Below, piece after piece: positions 35,383 to 45,494 of a DNA stretch of 64,000 nucleotides; position 1 is the first letter of the stretch; every line of letters begins with the position of its first letter. The translations under genes were made by a program, and so were the position numbers. Source of the DNA: an uncultured Pelagibacteraceae bacterium (lineage in GTDB: Bacteria; Pseudomonadota; Alphaproteobacteria; Pelagibacterales; Pelagibacteraceae); the NCBI GenBank assembly GCA_902542235.1, contig CACBTT010000004.1, positions 1 to 64,000 on the forward strand. The letters run 5' to 3'. The notes below the pieces were generated by a model, which worked only from the letters and a program-made list of their open reading frames with translations, was not told the origin of the DNA and did not search any database.

Positions 35383-35468
35383 TGGTGCCCTCGGCCAGAC
35401 TCGAACTGGCACTCCCAAAAGGGCAAGGATTTTAAGTCCTTTGTGTCTACCAATTTCACCACGAGGGC
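35383..35468 (-). tRNA. tRNA-Leu (UAA), integration target
   Basis: An 86-nt class II tRNA with an intact cloverleaf: acceptor GCCCTCG pairs with CGAGGGC, the anticodon loop is CTTAAAA (TAA), a long variable arm is present, the T-loop is AGTTCGAGTC and the 3' CCA is encoded. The first 39 nt, up to the end of the anticodon loop, are repeated exactly at 38793-38831 and 44119-44157. The functional gene is therefore probably a hybrid: a chromosomal 3' half and a 5' half brought by element 1. Confidence 0.97.
35430..35468 (-). repeat. att core copy A (tRNA-Leu 5' half, within the intact tRNA)
   Basis: A 39-bp direct repeat, identical in all three copies. It starts TTTTAAGTCC on the plus strand and ends CACGAGGGC. 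It covers tRNA positions 1-39, so the crossover probably lies in the anticodon loop. To the left, similarity to copies B and C stops inside the loop. To the right, a further 85 bp or so resembles what follows copy B but not copy C. Confidence 0.9.
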
Positions 35469-35488
35469 ATTAATGAATTTCATGAGTG

Positions 35489-35515
35489 TTTATGCCAATA
35501 TTTATAATTGAACAA
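35489..35515 (-). promoter_or_regulatory. putative tRNA-Leu promoter carried by element 1
   Basis: Minus strand: TTGTTC (35510-35515), a 15-bp spacer and CATAAA (35489-35494), ending 20 bp before the tRNA 5' end. The same boxes and the sequence between them recur behind copy B (38852-38878) with one change, but not behind copy C. That supports a promoter carried by the element. The spacer is a little short, so the exact boxes are uncertain. Confidence 0.5.
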
Positions 35516-35552
35516 GAGGAATAAGTAAATTTTTTTTATTTTATCTCTCTAT

Positions 35553-35574
35553 GCTCTGGTCTTGCTCTGGTTAT
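35553..35574. repeat. X-type phased repeat, left end of element 1
   Basis: Two adjacent 11-bp direct repeats, GCTCTGGTCTT and GCTCTGGTTAT, preceded by TATCTCTC and followed by TCCTACAAAATCC. The same pair, with GCTCTTG for GCTCTGG in the first unit, recurs in direct orientation at 38648-38669 at the other end of the element. The 11-bp pitch places both units on the same DNA face, as in recombinase arm-type sites. Confidence 0.7.
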
Positions 35575-35615
35575 CCTACAAAATCCAATAATAAATTTGA
35601 TTAATTAGTATATTG

Positions 35616-37730
35616 TCAAAAATTTTCTTTTGTATATTTAACTATTTCTTCAGGATCTAAAGCTTTGGATGCGTTTCCACTTCTAATAAAAGCTTGCTTT
35701 ATTTTTTTTCCACTCTTATCCAAAAGATCTATAAAAACAAGTTGATTACTTTTTTTTATCTCAACTTTGCAAATTTCCTTATCATTAATCTCATAAAATT
35801 CTATTTTAATTAGCCTAGAAGCAAAAGTCATATCAAATGCATTTGAAATTGAATTTCTTAAAGTTAATTCAAATGCATCTTTATCTTGAGATTTACCAAA
35901 ACTTTTATAATCATGCTCTAATCCAATTATATTGCCATTATTTGCAACTCCGATCAATAAAGTTCCTCCATCAGAATTTGTAAATGCAGAAATTGTTTTT
36001 AGTATGGCTCCTTCTAAAACTTTGTCAGTTTGATGTTTATCTAAACTCCATCTAAAAGTTGATTTGAATTCTAGCTGGTCACTTTCACCTTTATCAATTA
36101 ATGTTTCTATTGATATTGTTGAAGTTGTTTTTTCAGTTTTTGAAAAACCATCTAAAAATTCATTTAATTGTTTTGCTAAAATTTTTCTTCTTTCAACTAA
36201 AAAATCCTGAAAATTTTCTATCTTCCAAAGATTAGGGTCTGTTGGAATTGATTGAAGTAAAAGTGATTTATTATCTATTGAGTTTAAATAGTTTTCAGCA
36301 GATTTTGCAGATTTATCTCTATTTGCAATTTTTGTTAGCAATGCTCTATTAGTGAATTCTTGTGCCAATCTATAATTTTGTTCACCCATACCATAACCAA
36401 GTTTTTTTAAGACAGAATATGGAAAAATATGATCGCGTTCCAATTGATACATTTTACCCATAGTTTGGTGAATTGGTACGTTAGTAGTCAAACAAACAGC
36501 ATTTTTGCTTTTGAAATAAAATATGCATAATTTAAATAAAGGATGAGAAACATTTCTTCCTTCGAATTCGTTTTCTGTTATTTTTAAAGATCTCTCCTCT
36601 TCAATTAGCAAAAGAAGTTCATCAAAAGGATTTTCAGACTCCCATGCAATTTTACTATCTTTAGATAATTTTTGAGGCAATTGACTAATATATCTATTTC
36701 TGATTTGAGAATAATAGAACCATCTAATAATCTTATTTGTTTCTTCATCAGAAAAATGTTTTTCACCACTTTCAAATTTTTTGAAATAATAAACAATTAT
36801 TGGAATTAAAGCATAATAGGAATTAATCTCTTCAGTATGGTCAACAAATGCTTTATTTTTTAAAATATTAATTACATAATCCAAGACATATTTATCTAAA
36901 ATTTCCCATGTCTTAATAATTTTTTCTTTATTTTCAGGGCTGTGAAGTTTTTTCATTTCATCACCAGACTGGTACATAACTGCAAGTAATGAGTAAACGA
37001 TAAAATCTAACCTAAATTCGAAACCTTTGTCAGATAATTCAAAAATTTTTTTCTTAAAAAGGTCTCTAGCCTCCTCCCAATAACCTGAAATTTGAGCTAA
37101 AGCTAATTCTGCATCTGTTAAAGTAATTCCTCCAGAGTTAACTGTATAAAATATATCAATTGCTTCCCTTATTTTTGCTTCAATAGGTATTACTTGTTCA
37201 ATAAAATCTCTTTGCAATATTGATTTTATTTTTCCATGTGTAGATAAAATTTTATCACTTCTGTTTTTGTAATCATCTTTTTCTAATATATTCATTAATA
37301 TCTTATTATTATCTGCAAAAACGTCTGTAAGATTTACCCATAAAGGATCCTTTTCCATTATTGTTTTTTTATAATATTGTAAATCGCCACTTTCTAAATT
37401 TACGTAGAGGCCTCTTGTATCTACTGTAATTTCTTTATCCTCATAATAGGGAGGTATTTTTCCAGTGATATTTAGATAGAGTGAAGTTATTCTTTGTTGA
37501 CCATCTAAAATTAATTTAATTGCACCCATTTTGTTGTCATAAAGAATATTGCCCTTCATTTTTGGAGGATTGTTTGTCGACCATGTCAACATTGTGCCGA
37601 ATGGATAACCTTTGATTAAAGAGTCAAATAAACTTTTAACATTTTCTCTTTTCCAAACATATTCTCTTTGAAATACAGGAACAAACAATTGGTTATTATC
37701 TATTGAAGAAATTATTTCAGATATTTTCAT
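35616..37730 (-). CDS. DUF262-DUF1524-AlbA_2 fusion, putative defence protein
   Basis: A 704-residue protein with three recognisable parts. The N-terminal DUF262 (GmrS-like, ParB/sulfiredoxin-type nucleotidase) has FQREYVWKRENVKSLFDSLI at residues 20-39 and LDGQQRITSLY at 75-85. The middle part has an HNH-like DUF1524 motif, ERDHIFPYSVLKKLGYG at 431-447, with NRALLTKIANRDKS at 461-474. The C-terminal Schlafen-type AlbA_2 domain has GESDQLEFKST at 548-558 and DGGTLLIGVANNGNIIGLEH at 587-606. DUF262/DUF1524 proteins include type IV restriction enzymes that cut modified phage DNA. A fused AlbA_2 domain suggests nucleic-acid sensing. The function is inferred; the domains are clear. It lies within tRNA-Leu element 1. 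Confidence 0.8.
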   Translation of the reverse strand: MKISEIISSIDNNQLFVPVFQREYVWKRENVKSLFDSLIKGYPFGTMLTWSTNNPPKMKGNILYDNKMGAIKLILDGQQRITSLYLNITGKIPPYYEDKEITVDTRGLYVNLESGDLQYYKKTIMEKDPLWVNLTDVFADNNKILMNILEKDDYKNRSDKILSTHGKIKSILQRDFIEQVIPIEAKIREAIDIFYTVNSGGITLTDAELALAQISGYWEEARDLFKKKIFELSDKGFEFRLDFIVYSLLAVMYQSGDEMKKLHSPENKEKIIKTWEILDKYVLDYVINILKNKAFVDHTEEINSYYALIPIIVYYFKKFESGEKHFSDEETNKIIRWFYYSQIRNRYISQLPQKLSKDSKIAWESENPFDELLLLIEEERSLKITENEFEGRNVSHPLFKLCIFYFKSKNAVCLTTNVPIHQTMGKMYQLERDHIFPYSVLKKLGYGMGEQNYRLAQEFTNRALLTKIANRDKSAKSAENYLNSIDNKSLLLQSIPTDPNLWKIENFQDFLVERRKILAKQLNEFLDGFSKTEKTTSTISIETLIDKGESDQLEFKSTFRWSLDKHQTDKVLEGAILKTISAFTNSDGGTLLIGVANNGNIIGLEHDYKSFGKSQDKDAFELTLRNSISNAFDMTFASRLIKIEFYEINDKEICKVEIKKSNQLVFIDLLDKSGKKIKQAFIRSGNASKALDPEEIVKYTKENF

Positions 37731-37822
37731 AAGTTACAAATATCAAATCCTTAATACAGTGTCTAACCATCTATTCATGAAGTATAATAGAATTTAGCAA
37801 TCATTTAAGGTTTATTTGAAAG

Positions 37823-38623
37823 CTAAATTAAGTCTTTTCCTGCATCTAAGAACATGCATTTTTCACAGCTCTTATTTATTTCAGGAACATTATCTAGATC
37901 TAAAGTTTTTTTCATATCATTAATTTTATCTTGTACCCAAGATGTATCTGTAACATACGGAACTAAAGTTATAGTAAAATTCAATTTTCCTTCAAAATTA
38001 TCAAAGCTTTTTTCACCATTGCATACATAAAAATATGAGGTATCTGAAACTTTAAATCCCATTTTTCTTAAAATATGAACATATATATCCATCTGTATTT
38101 TATAACCTTGATGATACATACTTTCTAAATATGCTTTAGTTTCAACTTTAGTATTACTTGATTGAGCCTTATAATCTACCACAACCAATTCCTCTTTATC
38201 TAAATCATACCAAATATCATCTACCCCACCATGAATTTCTATATTGGTTTCTTTATCTAAATACGAAATTCCACCAGTTAAAGAGTTTCTCCAATGATCT
38301 AATTCTTCATGCTGGAAAGGAATAAAATTAAGATTATGTTTCTTAAATATTGGATGTGGTTTTTTTTGGCTTCTCAGTAAATCAAATTCCTTTTTAAGTA
38401 GCTCATCAACTGCAACATTTAACGACCAGCCAGGCATTCCAGGCTCTTTTAATCCCTTAACCCTATCTAGATAAAAACATCTTCTGCAATCTAAAAAATT
38501 ACTAAATTTTGATCGGCTTATTTTAAAAGGCTCATTGTTTCCTTTTTTATAAATACTTCCTTTTCGACTTCTCAAAGGATTTACCTCAACTAAATTACCT
38601 TTGCTATCTCTTTTTAAACCCAT
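37823..38623 (-). CDS. PD-(D/E)XK nuclease, Cas4/RecB-like, with four cysteines
   Basis: 266 residues. The nuclease core shows GGVDDIWYD at 132-140, VVVDYKAQ at 147-154 (the D-x-K of the fold: D150, K152) and a RecB-type QxxxY motif, QMDIY, at 177-181. Two CxxC-type pairs, CRRC at 46-49 and CEKC at 253-256, flank the core and could hold a 4Fe-4S cluster, as in Cas4 and AddB-like enzymes. No cas genes or CRISPR repeats are nearby. It lies 92 bp upstream of the DUF262 fusion gene in the same direction, and 24 bp from the X repeat that marks the right end of the element. A joint role in defence or element maintenance is inferred. Confidence 0.75.
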   Translation of the reverse strand: MGLKRDSKGNLVEVNPLRSRKGSIYKKGNNEPFKISRSKFSNFLDCRRCFYLDRVKGLKEPGMPGWSLNVAVDELLKKEFDLLRSQKKPHPIFKKHNLNFIPFQHEELDHWRNSLTGGISYLDKETNIEIHGGVDDIWYDLDKEELVVVDYKAQSSNTKVETKAYLESMYHQGYKIQMDIYVHILRKMGFKVSDTSYFYVCNGEKSFDNFEGKLNFTITLVPYVTDTSWVQDKINDMKKTLDLDNVPEINKSCEKCMFLDAGKDLI

Positions 38624-38647
38624 AAATTTATCTTACTATCTCTCCAT

Positions 38648-38669
38648 GCTCTTGTCTTGCTCTGGTTTT
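38648..38669. repeat. X-type phased repeat, right end of element 1
   Basis: Adjacent 11-bp units GCTCTTGTCTT and GCTCTGGTTTT, preceded by TATCTCTCCAT as at the left end (35553-35574). It begins 24 bp upstream of the nuclease start codon, so an operator or promoter role is an alternative to an arm site. From here to the Y trio at 38745 there are 75 bp of A+T-rich sequence. Confidence 0.7.
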
Positions 38670-38744
38670 GACAAACAAAATACGCCTTAATTTTAAATCT
38701 TAATAAAAAGTTAAATTAAATTTAAGAGATTTTAACTGATTTTT

Positions 38745-38774
38745 AGACTACCTTGGACTACTATGGACTAACTT
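38745..38774. repeat. Y-type phased repeat, right end of element 1
   Basis: Three units with a 10-bp pitch sharing the hexamer (A/G)GACTA, at 38745, 38755 and 38765. The first unit starts 48 bp before core B. The spacing from Y start to core start is also exactly 48 bp in element 2. By position this could be the binding site of an excision factor (Xis/RDF); that is inference. Confidence 0.7.
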
Positions 38775-38792
38775 TAACTTCTATCCCTCGTC

Positions 38793-38831
38793 TTTTAAGT
38801 CCTTTGTGTCTACCAATTTCACCACGAGGGC
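38793..38831 (-). repeat. att core copy B (displaced tRNA-Leu 5' half)
   Basis: The 39-bp repeat identical to tRNA-Leu positions 1-39, without a 3' half after it. The 83 bp to its right match about nine bases in ten (by eye) of those behind copy A, including the tRNA promoter. It is the attachment junction between elements 1 and 2. The 38624-38970 interval holds only this junction, its X and Y repeats and promoter. Confidence 0.9.
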
Positions 38832-38851
38832 ATGAGTTATTTTCATGAGTG

Positions 38852-38878
38852 TTTATGCTAATATTTATAATTGAACAA
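38852..38878 (-). promoter_or_regulatory. displaced tRNA-Leu promoter behind copy B
   Basis: Minus strand: TTGTTC (38873-38878), a 15-bp spacer and CATAAA (38852-38857), matching the element 1 copy. It now points through the 5' tRNA fragment towards the nuclease gene starting at 38623, so it could drive element 1 cargo. Confidence 0.45.
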
Positions 38879-38914
38879 GTCTAATAAGTAAATTTTTTTT
38901 ATTTTATCTCTCTA

Positions 38915-38936
38915 GTTTCTAGTTTGTTTCTAGTTG
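38915..38936. repeat. X-type phased repeat, left end of element 2
   Basis: Adjacent 11-bp units GTTTCTAGTTT and GTTTCTAGTTG, preceded by TATCTCTCTA and followed by TCCTATAAAATCC. Position relative to core B matches the element 1 left end (83 versus 84 bp from the core). The unit sequence differs from element 1 but matches the far right end of element 2. Confidence 0.7.
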
Positions 38937-38970
38937 TCCTATAAAATCCTATTTTAATTTTAGCTAATTA

Positions 38971-41466
38971 TTATTTAACATTGGCTTGTAAATAATTTAA
39001 AATGGAATCTGTCCCACCTAAAACGCTCTCAAACAATTCAATAGCCTCAACGTCGTCTGTTTCTTTAAAGTAATCATAGTGACACTGTTGGTTTTTTGCA
39101 ATTTTCTCATTTTTAGTCATACTTATGAAGCTCATCCAGCCCCATTGATTTAACAATCTAGAACCACATTTACTTTGAATATTTTCGCTGTGTCTAAAGA
39201 AAGGTATAATAGCATCTTCTCCTGGTTCTTCTCCAATATTAATCACTAAAATTTGATCATCAGTATCAAGTTTTCTCTTATAAACTAAAGCTTCTTCAAG
39301 TTTAACTTTCTTATCAACTTCATTTATTAAATTTCCTTTAATAATTGATTTATATAATTGATCTTCTTTTTGCCTTTTTGGTTTAATTGGATTTGTATTA
39401 GATGAGAAGTTTACATTATTTGATTTAAGTTTAAATATTCCATTTTCATAATTAAATATTGTAAAAATATCTTTCATTGGTTCTGCAATTTCCTCGGTTA
39501 TTTTCGCTTTAGCTATTTTTTTTATATCATTTGGTAAAGTTCTTAAATTTTCATTATCTTTTAAATATTTTAATATAGAATTTGTCCCAGCTAAAATAGC
39601 TTCAAATAATTCCAAAGACTCAGCATCATTAGACTCAGAAAAATAATTATGAATACATTGTTGGTTTTCTGCAAAATTTACATTATTAGTTTCACTTACA
39701 AAATTCATCCAACCGCCCTCAATGAAATTTAACTCCATAAATAACATGCCACATTTATTTATAATATTTTCACGGTGTCTAAACAAAGGCATGATTGTAT
39801 CTTCATCTGCCTTCCTTCCTATATAAACAGCTAAAATTTGATCCTTCATTTCATCTGTTAATTTATCCTGGTAAACCAATGCTCCAACAAATTTAATATT
39901 TTTATCATCTTCAGATATCAAATTTCCTTTGATAAATGCTTTATATAATTCATGATCTTTTTGTTTATTTGGCTTAATAGGATTTGTGTTTGATGCAAAT
40001 TTTACATCATTTGATTTAAGCTTAAATATTCCTCCAACATTATTATTAAAAATTTTAAATTCGTAATATCTAAATTTTTTTTCATAATCAGTTGGTTTTT
40101 CAGATAGTTTTTTTGTCCAGAGATTGCTCCCCTCTGACATTATATTTGCATTGAATATCTCAATTGGTTGGATATGATAATATGCGCTATGAAACGGTTT
40201 TACTTTAACTTCATGAGGTGAAAATTTACCTTCAAACCACTCCGGATGTTTTTCTGTCACAAATCTCATTGACCAATTAATATAAAATTGTTTATCTGGG
40301 ATTCTTCCCATTTTCAAATCACGCTGGTAATTTTCAAGACCACCTCGTTCATAAATAACGTGTTCCATATGTGTTTTAAAAGGTTTTGTTCCACATGATG
40401 CTGCGCCAACTCCTTTTTTTGCTATATGTTTTATTAAAGTAATATCATCATATATTTTGAAAAGTTGCTCGTACGCTTCAGCTAAAGTTTTTCCATGTCT
40501 TGTTTTATAATCAAGAAGATTAAATTTTGCTAAATTCAATAACTCCACATTAGTAGAAAATAATTGGCTTGTAGAGTATGAATATCCAATTGCTTTACAA
40601 CCTTTTGCTGCTGTTGGAATAAAATATCCTTCGTCACCAATCATGCTTAAAACATAGTCTAAATCCCACAACCCTTTAGACCAAAGTTCTTTATCTTGCA
40701 TAACTATAGCCAACGCTAATTCAGCTGAAGCAAATCTCAATCTTACAGTTCCACAATTATTAACTTTATATTTTTTTCTATTCAGCTTCATAGGATTTTT
40801 AATTGGACAAAGTTTTGTTCTACTACGATTGCCATCTCTATCAAGTCGTTCAATCATTGCTTTATCTTTAAAATAATTTTGGATAGTTTTATGCTGATCT
40901 TCTGTAAAATTGAATTGATCATAATTAACTGCATAAAATGTTACTAGTGGAGAAAGAACACCCCATAATTGATAATCTCTTGGATTAAAATTATCCTTAC
41001 CTGAATTTTTATAGACCCAATTATCTTTTTCGGCGGTTGCAATATTTAATATTATTTCCCCATGCAAATCTATTCCTCCCTCAAAATCTATTGTGGCATA
41101 ACTCATTAAAGCTCTTTGACATCTTTTGAAAATTTCATCTTCAATTGTAGGAGTACTTGGAACTTTAAATTCACTAATTACTTTTGTGCACAATTCTTTG
41201 GTTAAAATTTTTCCACCTATATCTTCTTTCCAAAGATACTTTTGACTATGCCAATTATTGGCCAGTATATTTTTTCTATAAAATTTATATCTTTTATAAT
41301 CTTTTATAATTCTATCTGTTTTGGGAAGTGGAACCTTTAGAAGCTCACTTGATTTAACATGATCATCCATCATTTCTTTTGCTTCATCTGAATAAATTTG
41401 TTCTGCTAATATTGGATTTGTAAAAGTAAAAATTGAAAATAATAAAAATATTAAAAATTTTTTCAT
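38971..41466 (-). CDS. large secreted protein, possible alginate-lyase-like helical domain plus duplicated C-terminal domain
   Basis: 831 residues with a signal peptide (about 1-21, ending PILAEQ). Residues of about 60-470 are rich in helix and Trp/Tyr (for example LRFASAELALAIVMQDKELW, GYSYSTSQLFSTNVELL), which resembles the alpha/alpha-toroid lyase folds such as alginate lyase; I could not find a decisive catalytic motif. Residues 478-640 and 675-831 are two copies of one domain, sharing GIFKLKSN, SNTNPIKP, IKGNLI, FRH-x-ENI-x-x-KCG, GGT/GT-x-SIL and one cysteine near NQQC. The function is unknown. Its upstream region is nearly identical to that of the 41579-42538 gene. It lies within composite element 2. 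Confidence 0.6.
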   Translation of the reverse strand: MKKFLIFLLFSIFTFTNPILAEQIYSDEAKEMMDDHVKSSELLKVPLPKTDRIIKDYKRYKFYRKNILANNWHSQKYLWKEDIGGKILTKELCTKVISEFKVPSTPTIEDEIFKRCQRALMSYATIDFEGGIDLHGEIILNIATAEKDNWVYKNSGKDNFNPRDYQLWGVLSPLVTFYAVNYDQFNFTEDQHKTIQNYFKDKAMIERLDRDGNRSRTKLCPIKNPMKLNRKKYKVNNCGTVRLRFASAELALAIVMQDKELWSKGLWDLDYVLSMIGDEGYFIPTAAKGCKAIGYSYSTSQLFSTNVELLNLAKFNLLDYKTRHGKTLAEAYEQLFKIYDDITLIKHIAKKGVGAASCGTKPFKTHMEHVIYERGGLENYQRDLKMGRIPDKQFYINWSMRFVTEKHPEWFEGKFSPHEVKVKPFHSAYYHIQPIEIFNANIMSEGSNLWTKKLSEKPTDYEKKFRYYEFKIFNNNVGGIFKLKSNDVKFASNTNPIKPNKQKDHELYKAFIKGNLISEDDKNIKFVGALVYQDKLTDEMKDQILAVYIGRKADEDTIMPLFRHRENIINKCGMLFMELNFIEGGWMNFVSETNNVNFAENQQCIHNYFSESNDAESLELFEAILAGTNSILKYLKDNENLRTLPNDIKKIAKAKITEEIAEPMKDIFTIFNYENGIFKLKSNNVNFSSNTNPIKPKRQKEDQLYKSIIKGNLINEVDKKVKLEEALVYKRKLDTDDQILVINIGEEPGEDAIIPFFRHSENIQSKCGSRLLNQWGWMSFISMTKNEKIAKNQQCHYDYFKETDDVEAIELFESVLGGTDSILNYLQANVK

Positions 41467-41496
41467 ATATATTAATAATAATATTCTATCTCTTTA

Positions 41497-41518
41497 ACGT
41501 CTAGTCTACGTCTAGTTA
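41497..41518. repeat. inner X-type phased repeat 1 of element 2
   Basis: Adjacent 11-bp units ACGTCTAGTCT and ACGTCTAGTTA. The left flank (TATCTCTTTA after an ATTAATAATAATATTC run) matches the flank of inner X2. The right flank (TCCTATAATATCC) matches the left-end type seen at 35575 and 38937. It therefore looks like a hybrid of a right-end and a left-end site, as expected if recombination fused two elements here. It lies between the 831- and 319-residue genes. Confidence 0.65.
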
Positions 41519-41578
41519 TCCTATAATATCCTATTTAATACCTGATTTTTTTCTAACATTGTTTAAAATCAATTTATA

Positions 41579-42538
41579 TTAAAGTTTGTTACAATTATAA
41601 CCTAAATTTATTAAGTTTAATTGATTGCATTGATCTGCAAATCTTATTTCATCTATATACAAAATTTGAACTGTTGAAGCTTCCTCATAATTCCATTTAG
41701 TTTTCACTTTTTTTCCTTTAGCTTTTATTTGATTTGCTCTTGGCTGATAAATACCAAAATTTGTTGATGAGAATGATGAGTTTCCTGGCATTTTATTTTC
41801 CATATTAATAATTTTTTTTCCGTTAACCCACATGAGTAAACTTTTCTTATTAGGTGTATGCACTATTACATCTATCCACTTTCCCAAGTGATTAGAAAAA
41901 TGTTTTAAATCAAAAAAAGGTGGATCGTGATATTTTTCACTTATTTTTCTACAAATATTTTTTCCTAGAAGTTTTTTACTAATTTTAACGCACTTATTGT
42001 CGTGAAGAAAACTTCTTAACTCTACATTTACAATTCCTTCAGGTGAGATACCCATTCTATAATGTGCACCTTTGCTTTTTCTATGTATTTGATTGAATAT
42101 AAGTGGCGTATTTGAATGAATATAATTTTTAGGGATTAATACAGAAAATGAAAGCCATTTACTTCCCCAATCTCGATACTTAGTTCCTATAAAAACTCGT
42201 CGTGCTCCCTCATAGCAATTGTTAAAGTTGTTTTTGCTATCATTAGATTTCTTGTATATCCCACAATCACCTGGATGACTTTCAAATTTAATAGAGATAT
42301 TATCTTCTCTTGAAATCTCATCTGTGATTTTCAAACAGTGATCAGGTCCTTTACCTTTCTGCCAGCAAGCATCCCAATGGTTCATTCTCAATTGTTTTCC
42401 ATCAAGAACACTTTCAGGTAAATTAATTAAACGCGAATTACCACTACTTTTACCTCCAGATAATTCTTTCCACACTACTGGATCTGCATATGAATAATTT
42501 AAAAAGAGAAAAAATAATAAAAATAAAAATTTTTTCAT
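41579..42538 (-). CDS. secreted polysaccharide-lyase-like protein (island paralogue)
   Basis: 319 residues with a signal peptide (about 1-18, ending NYSYA). The mature part has the jelly-roll pattern of the PF14099-like lyases: HPGDCG near 91-96, a CYEGARR run in the position of the paralogue's FRERSE, WLSFSVLIPK, FNQIHRKSKG, LGKWIDVIVH, LLMWVNGKK, FGIYQPR and a C-terminal ILYIDEIRFADQC. It is clearly related to the 4113-5030 gene but quite diverged. The substrate is not readable from the sequence. It is bracketed by the ACGTCTAG-type X repeats, so it may have been the sole cargo of a small ancestral element. Confidence 0.7.
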   Translation of the reverse strand: MKKFLFLLFFLFLNYSYADPVVWKELSGGKSSGNSRLINLPESVLDGKQLRMNHWDACWQKGKGPDHCLKITDEISREDNISIKFESHPGDCGIYKKSNDSKNNFNNCYEGARRVFIGTKYRDWGSKWLSFSVLIPKNYIHSNTPLIFNQIHRKSKGAHYRMGISPEGIVNVELRSFLHDNKCVKISKKLLGKNICRKISEKYHDPPFFDLKHFSNHLGKWIDVIVHTPNKKSLLMWVNGKKIINMENKMPGNSSFSSTNFGIYQPRANQIKAKGKKVKTKWNYEEASTVQILYIDEIRFADQCNQLNLINLGYNCNKL

Positions 42539-42566
42539 ATATTAATAATAATATTCTATCTATCTA

Positions 42567-42599
42567 ACGTCTAGTTTACGTCTAGTTTACGTCTAGTTT
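42567..42599. repeat. inner X-type phased repeat 2 of element 2
   Basis: Three perfect tandem copies of the 11-bp unit ACGTCTAGTTT, 28 bp upstream of the 319-residue gene start. The right flank (AAGAAAATTTATT) matches the right-end type seen after 43997. The 76 bp from here to the inner Y pair match the equivalent interval at the element's right end (73 bp). It also overlaps the 3' end of the truncated 64-codon reading frame. Confidence 0.75.
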
Positions 42600-42776
42600 A
42601 AGAAAATTTATTATACATATTTTCAAATAATAATAGGTTAAGGTTTTATTAAAATTTAGGATTTGATGGGATTTAAGACTGTATGAGACTGGAAAAGATA
42701 TATCTTTAGATTTAACTTTTGCTTCAGCAGATAAACATAAAAATATGCTAAATAAAGTTAAAAGAATTTTTTTCAT
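42582..42776 (-). pseudogene. truncated secreted-protein gene (signal peptide remnant)
   Basis: A 64-codon frame that starts 3 bp after the amidohydrolase stop. Residues 1-20 form a good signal peptide (MKKILLTLFSIFLCLSAEAK). From about residue 28 on, the frame simply reads through the Y pair (PVSYSLKS) and the X repeats in reverse, ending by chance. It looks like the 5' end of a second gene of the amidohydrolase operon whose remainder was lost when the neighbouring module joined here. A functional 64-residue product is unlikely. Confidence 0.65.
42676..42695. repeat. inner Y-type phased repeat of element 2
   Basis: Two units with a 10-bp pitch, AGACTGTATG and AGACTGGAAA, preceded by ATGGGATTTA exactly as at the right end of element 2 (44061-44070). 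The expected third unit and the tRNA half 48 bp on are missing; coding sequence of the truncated gene begins here instead. This marks a deletion scar. Confidence 0.65.
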
Positions 42777-42779
42777 TTT

Positions 42780-43946
42780 TTATTGTTTGCCAACAATTAA
42801 AGGTTGATTAAGATTAATTTTAAAAAGTTTAGCTGCATTTTTATATGCAATCTTTTCTTGTACATCTGGGCTTAAAGATCCAATCATCAAACGAACATGC
42901 TTCATATAGTGTTCAACAAAAACATCATGTGCTGGGCTTTTACCTAATTTATGATCAGAACCAAAAAAATATCTATCGGAATATTTTTCCATCGATTTTG
43001 CCCAAACCTCATGTAATTTAAATCTATAATCATTTGGGATGTGCAAATCCTCAAAGCCCCAAAGAGAAGACCAATGAAATGCTATTTTCCAGTCAGTATA
43101 TGTATTAGGACAATAATCAAAAATTTCTTCAAGGTCTTTTGTTGGCATCATTCCTGTATGAGCTATCACAATTTTTGCGTTGGGGTATTTTTCACATTTT
43201 TTTTTATAAAAATTTTTAAACTCTGTTAATCTATCTATCCCATCTATTTCATGAAAAGGCTCCAGGTGTAAATTAATCGGCATACGGTGTTCATTGACAA
43301 ATTCGAACGCCTTATCAATAATTGGGTGCTTAAGATCTAAATCTAATTGCGGTTGATACCCACCATAAGGGGGATTTTTTTTCTTTTTATTATAGTGAAC
43401 TAGTCCAGCTTCTCCCAATCCATAACATTGTCCTTTTTTAAATCTTTTAATAGTTTCTTTAAACTCTTTATTAACTTCTGAGTTCTTATATTTTTTTTTA
43501 TTTGCTGACATTCCAATAAAATTGGAATGACAATTAGTTAAAACATTCTGATGCTCTGCAGCAAAATCATAATAATAATTCCAATTATCTTCTGATTTGT
43601 AAGTATTTGGAGTTCCCATAATTACAGACATAAAAACATTTGCCTTATTTGTTAACATTGGCAAATCTTCTATAAAATACTCAGTACCTATATCTAAAGC
43701 TCTTCCGGTGGATTTTCTAGGATGTGCATGACCATCTATTATAGCTCCTAAATAAGGTTTATTTGTATCTCTTACCTCAAGATTATTAAGTTTATAACTG
43801 TCTAAAAGTTTTTTTGCTTCTTCACGACTTTCAGTTTTTCCAAACATAATTCTTTCATAAGCCCAGTGATCGAATCTATAGTGTTCGTCAAAACTGTTGG
43901 CAAACGTTGGTAAAATTAAAAAAATAAATAACAAAATTTTTTTCAT
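42780..43946 (-). CDS. secreted amidohydrolase-family (TIM-barrel) protein
   Basis: 388 residues with a signal peptide (about 1-18, ending FANS). The metal-dependent amidohydrolase (PF04909-like) pattern is visible: DGHAHPRK at 71-78 (H73 and H75 as metal ligands), GLGEAGLVHY, INLHLEPFHE (third His), KIVIAHTGMM (fourth His) and FFGSDHKLG (catalytic Asp). It is therefore likely an active hydrolase or decarboxylase acting in the periplasm, but the substrate is unknown. It is the first gene of element 2 as read from the displaced native tRNA promoter at 44174-44201. X repeats begin 30 bp upstream of its start. Confidence 0.72.
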   Translation of the reverse strand: MKKILLFIFLILPTFANSFDEHYRFDHWAYERIMFGKTESREEAKKLLDSYKLNNLEVRDTNKPYLGAIIDGHAHPRKSTGRALDIGTEYFIEDLPMLTNKANVFMSVIMGTPNTYKSEDNWNYYYDFAAEHQNVLTNCHSNFIGMSANKKKYKNSEVNKEFKETIKRFKKGQCYGLGEAGLVHYNKKKKNPPYGGYQPQLDLDLKHPIIDKAFEFVNEHRMPINLHLEPFHEIDGIDRLTEFKNFYKKKCEKYPNAKIVIAHTGMMPTKDLEEIFDYCPNTYTDWKIAFHWSSLWGFEDLHIPNDYRFKLHEVWAKSMEKYSDRYFFGSDHKLGKSPAHDVFVEHYMKHVRLMIGSLSPDVQEKIAYKNAAKLFKINLNQPLIVGKQ

Positions 43947-43975
43947 TATTAAAATTATATTATTTCATCTCTTTA

Positions 43976-43997
43976 GTTTCTAGTTAATTTCTAGTTT
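43976..43997. repeat. X-type phased repeat, right end of element 2
   Basis: Adjacent 11-bp units GTTTCTAGTTA and ATTTCTAGTTT, preceded by CATCTCTTTA. It matches the left-end unit of the same element (38915-38936) better than the inner sites. The interval to the Y trio at 44071 is 73 bp, against 75 bp in element 1. Confidence 0.7.
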
Positions 43998-44070
43998 GGT
44001 AGAATTTATAATTCATATTGCAATAAAAATAATTAAAGTTTTTTTAAAATTTAGAATTTAATGGGATTTA

Positions 44071-44100
44071 AGACTATATGAGACTGTGTGAGACTATAAA
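44071..44100. repeat. Y-type phased repeat, right end of element 2
   Basis: Three units with an exact 10-bp pitch, AGACTATATG, AGACTGTGTG and AGACTATAAA. The first starts 48 bp before core C, the same distance as in element 1. Confidence 0.75.
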
Positions 44101-44118
44101 TTTACTCTACCCTATGTT

Positions 44119-44157
44119 TTTTAAGTCCTTTGTGTCTACCAATTTCACCACGAGGGC
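44119..44157 (-). repeat. att core copy C (original chromosomal tRNA-Leu 5' half)
   Basis: The 39-bp repeat identical to copies A and B. What follows on the right differs from the element-type segment and holds a better promoter, ending at the stop of the 44202-45494 gene. I read this as the original 5' half of tRNA-Leu, displaced 8.7 kb from its 3' half by the insertions. Confidence 0.88.
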
Positions 44158-44173
44158 TTTTATAAAGTTCATC

Positions 44174-44201
44174 GTTATATATATTAAAATTTATATCTCA
44201 A
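44174..44201 (-). promoter_or_regulatory. native tRNA-Leu promoter, now facing element 2
   Basis: Minus strand: TTGAGA (44196-44201), a 16-bp spacer and TATAAC (44174-44179), ending 16 bp before the tRNA 5' half. It is a better match to consensus than the element-borne version. It now reads through the tRNA fragment into element 2, whose first gene starts at 43946. Confidence 0.55.
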
Positions 44202-45494
44202 CTATATTAAATTGTATTGATATTCTCTAGCTTCAATTATTTCTTTTTGTAAATTTAGCTCAACATCGTCTAATCTTATAAATTGATCTTTCATTATATC
44301 ATTCTTTAAGATTGCATTTTCAGTGTATCCCATAGGTAAAATTCTTTCTTGTTTAGATCTTTTGGATGAAATCAACCTTCCCCTTGCACAATAACCCCCT
44401 TCTCCATCAAGTTTTTGACCTACTTTTAAATCTTTTTTTGCGACACTAGCTATTTCAGCATTAAAATTTTTTGTGTGACCTGTAGCCTTATTATCAAGCA
44501 CTATGGAATAAATTGATTGAGCTAATTCTAATCCAATATAATGATAAGGTCTCCATATAGCTGAATAACTTCCGGAGGAGTCTGTTACCATTCCGTAATC
44601 TTTGAAACAGTTTTTTACATACTCATTTTGAGCTTTAATAACAATATACACTCCCCATCTAAGATCATTGGGTATATCTTTTTTATCTAAATCAATGCTT
44701 GAGATAACTTCAACTTGACCAGAGTGGTCTAATAGACCACCTTCAGACTTTGGAATTAATTTTTTGGCAATTTCATAAACTCCAATTGGAGGATATGTTA
44801 ATCCACTATTTGGGCATTTTAAGTCTGTAGCATTACTAACAGCACACATTTCTATTGATGATTTATCCCCACATAAAAAACTATTAAACATTTTAGGATT
44901 CATCCCAGATTCATTTTCAGCTCTTTCTTTAGTTAAACCATAGTGTCCCCAAACAGTTTCTGGTGTCGAATATTCAAATGATGGATGATATTTTGTTCCT
45001 TTACCTGCGCATACAACTTCAAAACCATTCAATTTTGCCCATTCAATTTGTTCTAATATTAATGATGGTTGATCACCATAAGCCATTGAACAGATAACAT
45101 TATTTTTTTTGGCTAAATCAGATAAGTATTTTCCACACAAAACATCTGCCTCGACATTTACCATTATTACATGTTTTTTATTTTCTATTATTTTTTTTGC
45201 GTGAATGGTGCCAGAAATAGGATTCCCTGTAGCCTCGATATATACATCGATTTCTCTATCTAAAACTTTGTCTAAATTATCTGCAAAATTAATCTTTTGT
45301 ATAGTTTCACTAGATAATCCACTATTTAAACAATTTTTTTTTGCTCTCTCAATATCAAGCTCTATGATTGAATCTAAAATGATTTTGTTTAATTGATTAT
45401 ATTGAGCGAGAAACATTGAAACAAATTTCCCACAACCAACAAAAGCAACTCTAATTGGTTTTTTTAAATTTTGAAGTTTAGTATATAAATACAC
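44202..45494 (-). CDS. homoserine-dehydrogenase-like oxidoreductase with SAF domain
   Basis: 430 residues. The N-terminal Rossmann fold has VAFVGCGKFVSMF near residues 17-29 and EATGNPISG near 88-96, as in the NAD-binding part of homoserine dehydrogenases. The C-terminal part (about 370-395) has the SAF-type strand KDLKVGQKLDGEGGYCARGR. The combination is known in alphaproteobacteria but the substrate is not settled; classical homoserine dehydrogenase lacks the SAF part. The start codon is GTG, and no in-frame ATG lies before the Rossmann motif. It is the last gene of the co-oriented set from 47659, 4 bp after azlD. Confidence 0.7.
   Translation of the reverse strand: MYLYTKLQNLKKPIRVAFVGCGKFVSMFLAQYNQLNKIILDSIIELDIERAKKNCLNSGLSSETIQKINFADNLDKVLDREIDVYIEATGNPISGTIHAKKIIENKKHVIMVNVEADVLCGKYLSDLAKKNNVICSMAYGDQPSLILEQIEWAKLNGFEVVCAGKGTKYHPSFEYSTPETVWGHYGLTKERAENESGMNPKMFNSFLCGDKSSIEMCAVSNATDLKCPNSGLTYPPIGVYEIAKKLIPKSEGGLLDHSGQVEVISSIDLDKKDIPNDLRWGVYIVIKAQNEYVKNCFKDYGMVTDSSGSYSAIWRPYHYIGLELAQSIYSIVLDNKATGHTKNFNAEIASVAKKDLKVGQKLDGEGGYCARGRLISSKRSKQERILPMGYTENAILKNDIMKDQFIRLDDVELNLQKEIIEAREYQYNLI

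Follow-up and report, generated by a model that had tools for sequence, protein, structure and literature searches.

Integrase-less gene cassettes with matched end iterons at the tRNA-Leu(UAA) gene of Pelagibacteraceae, and related satellites that may mobilise them

Our analysis of a 64,000-nucleotide (nt) stretch of DNA from an uncultured Pelagibacteraceae bacterium (assembly GCA_902542235.1, contig CACBTT010000004.1, positions 1 to 64,000; hereafter the window) revealed two blocks of accessory genes lined up at the tRNA-Leu(UAA) gene and bracketed by copies of the first 39 nt of that gene, here called the core. These blocks most probably represent non-autonomous cassettes that are mobilised in trans by the integrases of small satellites and addressed by a barcode in their arm-type sites, a reading to which we assign a probability of roughly three in four. 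The system is real, widespread and unusually legible, and it joins additive tRNA islands to small satellites. A first-pass annotation of the same DNA, made from the sequence alone, had described two tandem elements inserted through the anticodon loop of the tRNA; it overlooked three features, namely that the blocks lack an integrase, that the iterons at their two ends match, and that block 2 is itself a fusion.

An exact pattern search found three identical copies of the 39-mer in the window, all on the minus strand, and none in 100 dinucleotide shuffles, which bears out the direct repeats of that annotation. According to ARAGORN, only core copy A belongs to a complete tRNA-Leu(UAA), and copies B and C occur without the rest of the tRNA (Table 1). 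In the direction of the tRNA, the locus consists of the gene for a 430-amino-acid (aa) oxidoreductase, the native upstream region, core C, block 2, core B, block 1, the intact tRNA and nadK. The accessory genes between the copies are co-oriented, as had been described, with all six non-overlapping open reading frames of at least 60 aa inside the blocks running in the direction of the tRNA. Sequence identity stops after the 7-nt anticodon loop CTTAAAA, which is flanked by the stem AAGGA/TCCTT. Each block is closed beside the core by a near-identical 73-bp promoter-like stretch, and core C adjoins a 44-bp sequence unlike it. The same 44-bp region stands at the empty sites of two relatives (L062 and L068), which places core C beside the original chromosomal upstream sequence, as the first-pass annotation had proposed. 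These relatives, 92.7 to 94.1% identical to the window flanks, also provided the empty site that it had predicted: the gene at 44202, the same native upstream region, a single intact tRNA-Leu and nadK, with no insert. Both blocks are therefore insertions, or they were cleanly lost in L062 and L068. Insertion into the 5′ half of a tRNA with a promoter supplied by the element had been called unusual, and this pattern is indeed rare in bacteria according to the accessible text of PMC8371274. A promoter has to come from the element, since the identity reaches to the 5′ side, and a conserved promoter-like stretch is present.

No integrase is encoded among the proteins of the two window blocks, and the sole PF00589 match of this genome lies on another contig. 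Neither block thus carries a tyrosine recombinase, unlike tycheposons, which in the account accessible in PMC10872708 have a tRNA at their border and such a recombinase within the element. The GmrSD-N/AlbA_2 protein of block 1 matches the PADLOC model HEC-05 (2.3e-54), and the genes of this block are probable defence cargo. A Pfam search with the 831-aa protein of block 2 gave no match; its gene (38971-41466 of the window) has an internal duplication visible in the DNA.

The 39-mer was sought with up to 3 mismatches in 297 genomes of the family, the window's own genome included. At least two copies were present in 33 of the 100 relatives of the same genus (one copy in 52, none in 15) and in 28 of the 102 members of a second genus, g4 (one in 54, none in 20), compared with a single genome among the remaining 94 relatives (G060, split over two contigs). 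These figures are tallies per genome; in a few genomes (e.g., G132 and G281) the copies lie on separate contigs, and drafts can conceal copies. Gene content and array size differ widely among genomes, so the variation at this locus that the first-pass annotation had implied does exist. In a control set of 40 genomes, 26 of them picked for multiple cores, the tRNA-Tyr half occurred once in 38 and was absent from 2, the tRNA-Cys half occurred once in 37 and was absent from 3, and no second copy of either was found. None of these 40 genomes has an array at tRNA-Cys, though two satellites occupy that tRNA half. These satellites (L146 and L149) have related integrases and sit in the 5′ half of an apparent tRNA-Cys, the iterons of L149 matching on both sides. 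As in additive tRNA islands, variable cassettes and partial tRNA repeats occur here at one tRNA gene, and close relatives show the empty site.

The ends were compared in 82 core-to-core blocks, 81 chromosomal and one from a viral contig (L072); the multi-copy genome G132, although located, was left out of this set. In most blocks, the core is followed by type-1 iterons (AGTC..., period 11) and then, at +124 to +129, by a type-2 pair of 11-bp iterons, after which a GAGATA-like motif and the first gene often follow. At the opposite end, a second type-2 pair lies at about −102 from the next core, and the window's genus has 23 non-redundant blocks in which this 3′ pair is separated from the core by a conserved promoter-like stretch. 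Type-2 pairs stood at the expected places of both ends in 53 of the 82 blocks. Their sequences are diverse, with 26 distinct 8-mers at the 3′ end, and yet the two ends of one block agree (at most 3 of 12 variable positions different) in 48 of the 53. When identical iterons were removed, 34 non-redundant blocks remained, in which the ends differed on average at 1.5 of 12 positions, as opposed to 6.29 (standard deviation, 0.36) for permuted ends; the minimum among 20,000 permutations was 4.41. Neighbouring cassettes had differing barcodes in 8 of 8 pairs, an observation that we discarded as uninformative because random pairs differ equally in 84% and 74% of cases in the two genera. CIMEs are integrase-less units that depend on a helper, and the blocks resemble them in being flanked by attachment sites and free of recombinases, as far as the tyrosine integrase families searched are concerned. 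A second cassette family shares the core and has CTAGTGTAG iterons and a different promoter-like end (Table 1).

A search for PF00589 covered 40 plus 33 relatives and the window's own genome. Most genomes have one match, a chromosomal protein of about 320 aa (317-325 aa). In the 73 relatives, the sole match inside an array is a satellite-type integrase in G248, and no integron integrase was found beside an array. An integrase profile likewise recovered one integrase in the 81 chromosomal blocks (L045, from G248), plus a further match behind the last listed core of L037. The 545-aa G248 integrase (P0001) starts directly after the core and has relatives in the viral contigs L072, L087, L091 and L093, each with the same exact core. 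In G182, a divergent integrase after the core gave no Pfam match, which means that PF00589 alone misses some integrases. Three genes near cores, of 507, 531 and 508 aa, were rejected as integrases when no Pfam integrase match was obtained; the 531-aa gene turned out to encode a divergent satellite integrase, and the other two had no profile match. A stretch of about 10 kb in G182 (contig C16, 22188-32429, comprising the L037 end and L137) runs from a core before a satellite-type integrase to a degenerate core and is a possible larger autonomous element.

The satellites are circular-looking, 7.7-8.9 kb long and equipped with a predicted arm-binding tyrosine integrase. The genes of L072 include int and those for a 781-aa primase-like protein and a RusA-like protein. 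A PHROGs scan of part of the genes in L072, L091 and L045 identified a primase-like protein in L091 and primase matches for a slice of the large gene of L045; with their integrases recognised by profile or Pfam, all three have both an integrase and a primase. Terminal repeats of 99 nt in L072, 123 nt in L087 and 99 nt in L091 are as expected for circles or concatemers, and L087 is permuted, with a single core mid-contig. The circular form with one core that the first-pass annotation had suggested is therefore apparent in these three integrase-bearing relatives and not in the window's own blocks. The four viral satellites and the G248 element share the core with the cassettes and likewise have type-1 iterons, with type-2 units at similar distances, and the satellite ACTAG units fall within the first int codons, as far from the core as the cassette 5′ pair. 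This shared layout indicates that the cassettes retain satellite-like attachment ends without satellite genes. In two other viral contigs (L074 and L085), an apparent complete tRNA-Leu runs on from the core and may be either a phage-borne tRNA or host flank.

The link between integrase and iteron was examined by comparing the arm region of the integrase (residues 40-125 of L072) with residues 150 onward. The L072 integrase model shows an N-terminal three-stranded sheet plus helix, and its best matches among solved structures include the Tn1549, XerH, XerA, integron and lambda recombinases. In all nine pairs that differ in iterons and are at least 75% identical outside the arm region, the arm was the less conserved part (P ≤ 1.6e-5, for pairs that are non-independent). 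Identities of arm and rest were 51% versus 97% for L088-L090, 77% versus 96% for L087-L102, 42% versus 79% for L072-L091, and 57-66% versus 86-89% among L147, L148 and L155. These contrasts are confined to three families and therefore amount to about three independent cases. The sole pair with equal iterons, L072-L102 (L102 is the same contig as L093), showed no such contrast, with 97% for the arm and 94% for the rest. Iterons of L146-L155 were read by eye, and L147, L148 and L155 are without the tRNA-Leu core.

Comparison of block pairs pointed to movement between diverged hosts. Thirty-two pairs showed similarity across more than 70% of the longer block, many of them without a flank alignment. 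L134 and L135 share an identical 4,987-bp cassette without an integrase, although their downstream flanks are 76.8% identical, and L118 matches cassettes in L123, L129, L131, L134 and L135 at 98.4-99.4% over 70-82% of the longer unit next to flanks of 67.8-69.8% identity. Chimeric assembly is possible in draft genomes, yet flank and cassette lie on one contig. In L032-L035, cassettes and flanks are equal in divergence.

Cassettes also appear to fuse. Modules occur singly or joined, as c5-c4 (L124, L127), c1-c2-c3 (L123), both together (L118, L133) or with additions (L129, L131), and the junctions before c1 in L118, L119, L131 and L132 contain one iteron of each type side by side; no iterons were found at the junctions in L130 and between c5 and c15 of L131. 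Block 2 belongs to such a series, in which the 831-aa gene stands alone (L056, L106), follows the 319-aa gene (L107) or follows the 388- and 319-aa genes (window). The 319-831 junction in the window is an intact CTAGACGT pair, the outer iterons are CTAGAAAC, and no iterons mark the join between 388 and 319. The tandem arrangement of the first-pass annotation thus holds for two blocks bracketed by cores, and not for block 2 as a unit element, since it arose by fusion and holds two internal sites with iterons of another type. Altogether, the blocks contain 251 genes of at least 100 aa, 220 of them along the tRNA direction, in 142 clusters. In a scan of 101 of the 142 representatives, which omitted those of shorter length as well as int and primase of the satellites, matches were obtained to families such as restriction-modification, helicase, Hsp70, transporter and hydrolase.

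We propose that a tyrosine integrase would insert each block across the anticodon loop of tRNA-Leu(UAA), whereby the incoming 39-bp copy would rebuild the 5′ half and the tRNA would receive its replacement promoter from the cassette. The integrase would be supplied in trans by a related satellite that shares the core and carries integrase, small genes, primase and a RusA-like protein. Its arm-type sites would be the 11-bp iteron pairs that lie within the cassette, about 127 bp from one end and about 102 bp from the other. The lineage-specific iteron sequence would serve as an address that must fit the arm-binding domain, and both ends of one cassette would stay alike for that reason. Arrays would grow by repeated insertion, and neighbouring cassettes would at times fuse by recombination at the iterons. 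Entry into the cell may occur via phage particles, a guess from the PICMI precedent (PMC10803314). We infer mobilisation in trans, promoter activity and travel between cells from sequence, and the crossover point in the anticodon loop from the general rule for tyrosine integrases given in the accessible text of PMC8371274. A broader picture, which we put somewhat below even odds, is a SAR11 cassette economy at one tRNA gene, in which diversification of the arm domain would open many private recombination channels at one target, and cassettes would be tuned to a channel by their two-end barcode, switch channel by barcode exchange and fuse at the barcode.

Several observations weigh against mobilisation in trans. 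Transfer, excision and integrase binding were not observed. The integrase profile and PF00589 are blind to unrelated recombinases, and most cassette barcodes lack a known integrase partner. A pair is missing from one or both expected ends in 29 of the 82 blocks (13 have neither pair, 14 have just the 3′ pair and 2 just the 5′ pair), and these blocks lie outside the end comparison. Ends are mismatched in 5 of the 53 blocks compared (L036, L040, L112, L114 and L122), which we suspect to be fusions following loss of an internal core. The satellite 5′ units lie within coding sequence, the first two are 12 rather than 11 bp apart, and they equal the 3′ barcode only in part: an exact 3′-barcode unit is among the first two 5′ units in L072, L087, L093 and G248, but only the third unit is exact in L091. 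We take this looser match to reflect coding constraint. The L072 integrase model is of modest quality (mean pLDDT 72, pTM 0.41); L091 and G248 have a better conserved arm (76% versus 60%) despite different iterons, and in the eight remaining pairs of greater divergence the contrast is weak or absent (P from 0.03 to 0.62). In the 831-aa series of the window, cassettes (87-93%) and flanks (90-95%) are about equally diverged, with only L056-L107 slightly closer. Finally, an automatic scan found internal iterons 3 times in the 82 blocks, compared with 1 when the reverse strand of these blocks (295 kb) was scanned and 3 for downstream flanks (172 kb); as this is no excess, it is the junction sequences that support fusion.

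The mismatched ends and fused units, together with iterons upstream of the outermost core in L055, L071, L113 and L142, would also suit dead satellite or phage remnants that lost their integrase and spread, as leftovers flanked by attachment sites, only by homologous recombination of the flanks. We consider this unlikely, since arm sites would hardly have stayed matched in 48 of 53 blocks without selection, near-identical integrase-less cassettes lie next to diverged flanks, and the ends are intact with fixed distances. Mobilisation by T7-like pelagiphages through their own integrase is suggested by HTVC105P and S35C6, in which the exact core lies just downstream of a 297-aa integrase. It is nevertheless improbable given that the flanks of the phage core showed no cassette-type paired 11-bp iterons (repeat search in L095; L095 and L096 by eye) and that the HTVC105P integrase has SAM-like and catalytic domains only. 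The pelagiphage attachment site was also dismissed as the source of the cassette ends, because the core is the same and the flanks are different. Phages may package the cassettes.

The position of iterons upstream of the first gene, and before two genes within block 2, could make them cargo promoters or operators unrelated to integration. This fits poorly with the equal pair that stands ahead of the next core at a distance of about 102 bp, and with satellite 5′ units inside int, and we regard it as very improbable. We give slightly less credence still to capture by a host recombinase acting like an integron integrase, for which the candidate would be the 317-325-aa chromosomal protein, the only PF00589 protein in most of these genomes. 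At 317 aa in the window's genome, it is too short for such an arm-binding domain, its Xer matches are far under the cut-offs, and iterons that track the arm region of satellite integrases would be left unexplained. In the window's genome, this sole PF00589 protein is encoded at L001 1456-2409, and the models that it matches far below their cut-offs are XerD and XerC.

Table 1. Features of the tRNA-Leu(UAA) locus in the window and members of the second cassette family (the latter with coordinates in tRNA orientation)
Feature	Position	Strand	Remarks
Intact tRNA-Leu(UAA)	35383..35468	-	ARAGORN
Core copy A, first 39 nt of intact tRNA	35430-35468	-	pattern search
Core copy B, tRNA 5′ half	38793..38831	-	anticodon loop at its end
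Core copy C, orphan 5′ half	44119..44157	-	adjoins native upstream sequence
Native tRNA upstream region	44158..44201	-	44 bp; also in empty sites L062, L068
Cassette 1 (block 1)	35469..38792	-	3,324 bp; PD-(D/E)XK nuclease and GmrSD-N/AlbA_2 protein
Cassette 2 (block 2), fused unit	38832..44118	-	5,287 bp; amidohydrolase, polysaccharide-lyase-like protein, 831-aa protein
Promoter-like stretch, 3′ end of cassette 1	35469..35541	-	
Promoter-like stretch, 3′ end of cassette 2	38832..38904	-	
Cassette 1, 3′ iteron pair	35551..35571	-	ACCAGAGCAAG ACCAGAGCAT
Cassette 1, 5′ iteron pair	38646..38666	-	ACCAGAGCAAG ACAAGAGCAT
Cassette 2, 3′ iteron pair	38914..38934	-	ACTAGAAACAA ACTAGAAACT
Cassette 2, 5′ iteron pair	43975..43996	-	ACTAGAAATTA ACTAGAAACT
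Internal iteron pair, other barcode	41496..41516	-	CTAGACGT; fusion junction preceding 831-aa gene
Internal iterons, three units	42566..42597	-	CTAGACGT; precede 319-aa gene
Type-1 iterons close to core B	38745..38769	-	AGTC..., 11-bp period
Type-1 iterons close to core C	44070..44096	-	
Second family member	L049 4569-6066		
Second family member	L053 8269-9772		
Second family member	L055 1816-3271		
Second family member	L056 5217-7200		

Additive flexible genomic islands at tRNA genes are documented in Actinomarinales (PMC7771536) and Methylopumilus (PMC10872708), and there, as here, cassettes pile up at such genes, and direct repeats of part of the tRNA are left behind. The Methylopumilus repeats correspond to the last 20 nt of tRNA-Lys (PMC10872708), whereas the 5′ half and a carried promoter-like stretch are involved here; matched arm iterons and an integrase-bearing relative are features of the present system that the accessible parts of PMC7771536 and PMC10872708 do not mention. 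Small marine phage satellites include PICMIs, alongside which VEIMEs and tycheposons are named (PMC10803314). The autonomous relative found here is PICMI-like in being small and in having an integrase and a primase. PICMIs lie beside fis in Vibrionaceae and retain int, alpA and primase (PMC10803314), whereas the cassettes retain no integrase. CALIN integron arrays are integrase-less units dependent on a helper (PMC11389934), as proposed here, but, unlike in CALIN and CIME, variable arm sites apparently encode the choice of helper. T7-like pelagiphages with a tRNA-Leu attachment site (PMC3861242) use the same tRNA gene half in HTVC105P and S35C6 and differ from the cassettes in their integrase and in the flanks of that site. 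Archaeal pTN3-like elements (PMC8371274) also use the tRNA 5′ half with an element-supplied promoter; they are archaeal and carry an integrase, which the cassettes do not. The accessible literature on SAR11 satellites, integrases, tRNA-Leu islands, Pelagibacter cassettes and flexible islands yielded no description of the system, a weak negative given that subscription papers were mostly not covered.

SAR11 bacteria are abundant and streamlined. The system described here bears on how they gain genes, as it offers a widespread and defined entry point whose ends are recognisable, a partner that carries an integrase, and evidence from sequence for transfer between diverged hosts. If true, barcode matching would make the pairing of helper and cassette predictable from sequence, and the natural co-variation of arm domains and arm sites constitutes a ready data set on the partner choice of integrases.

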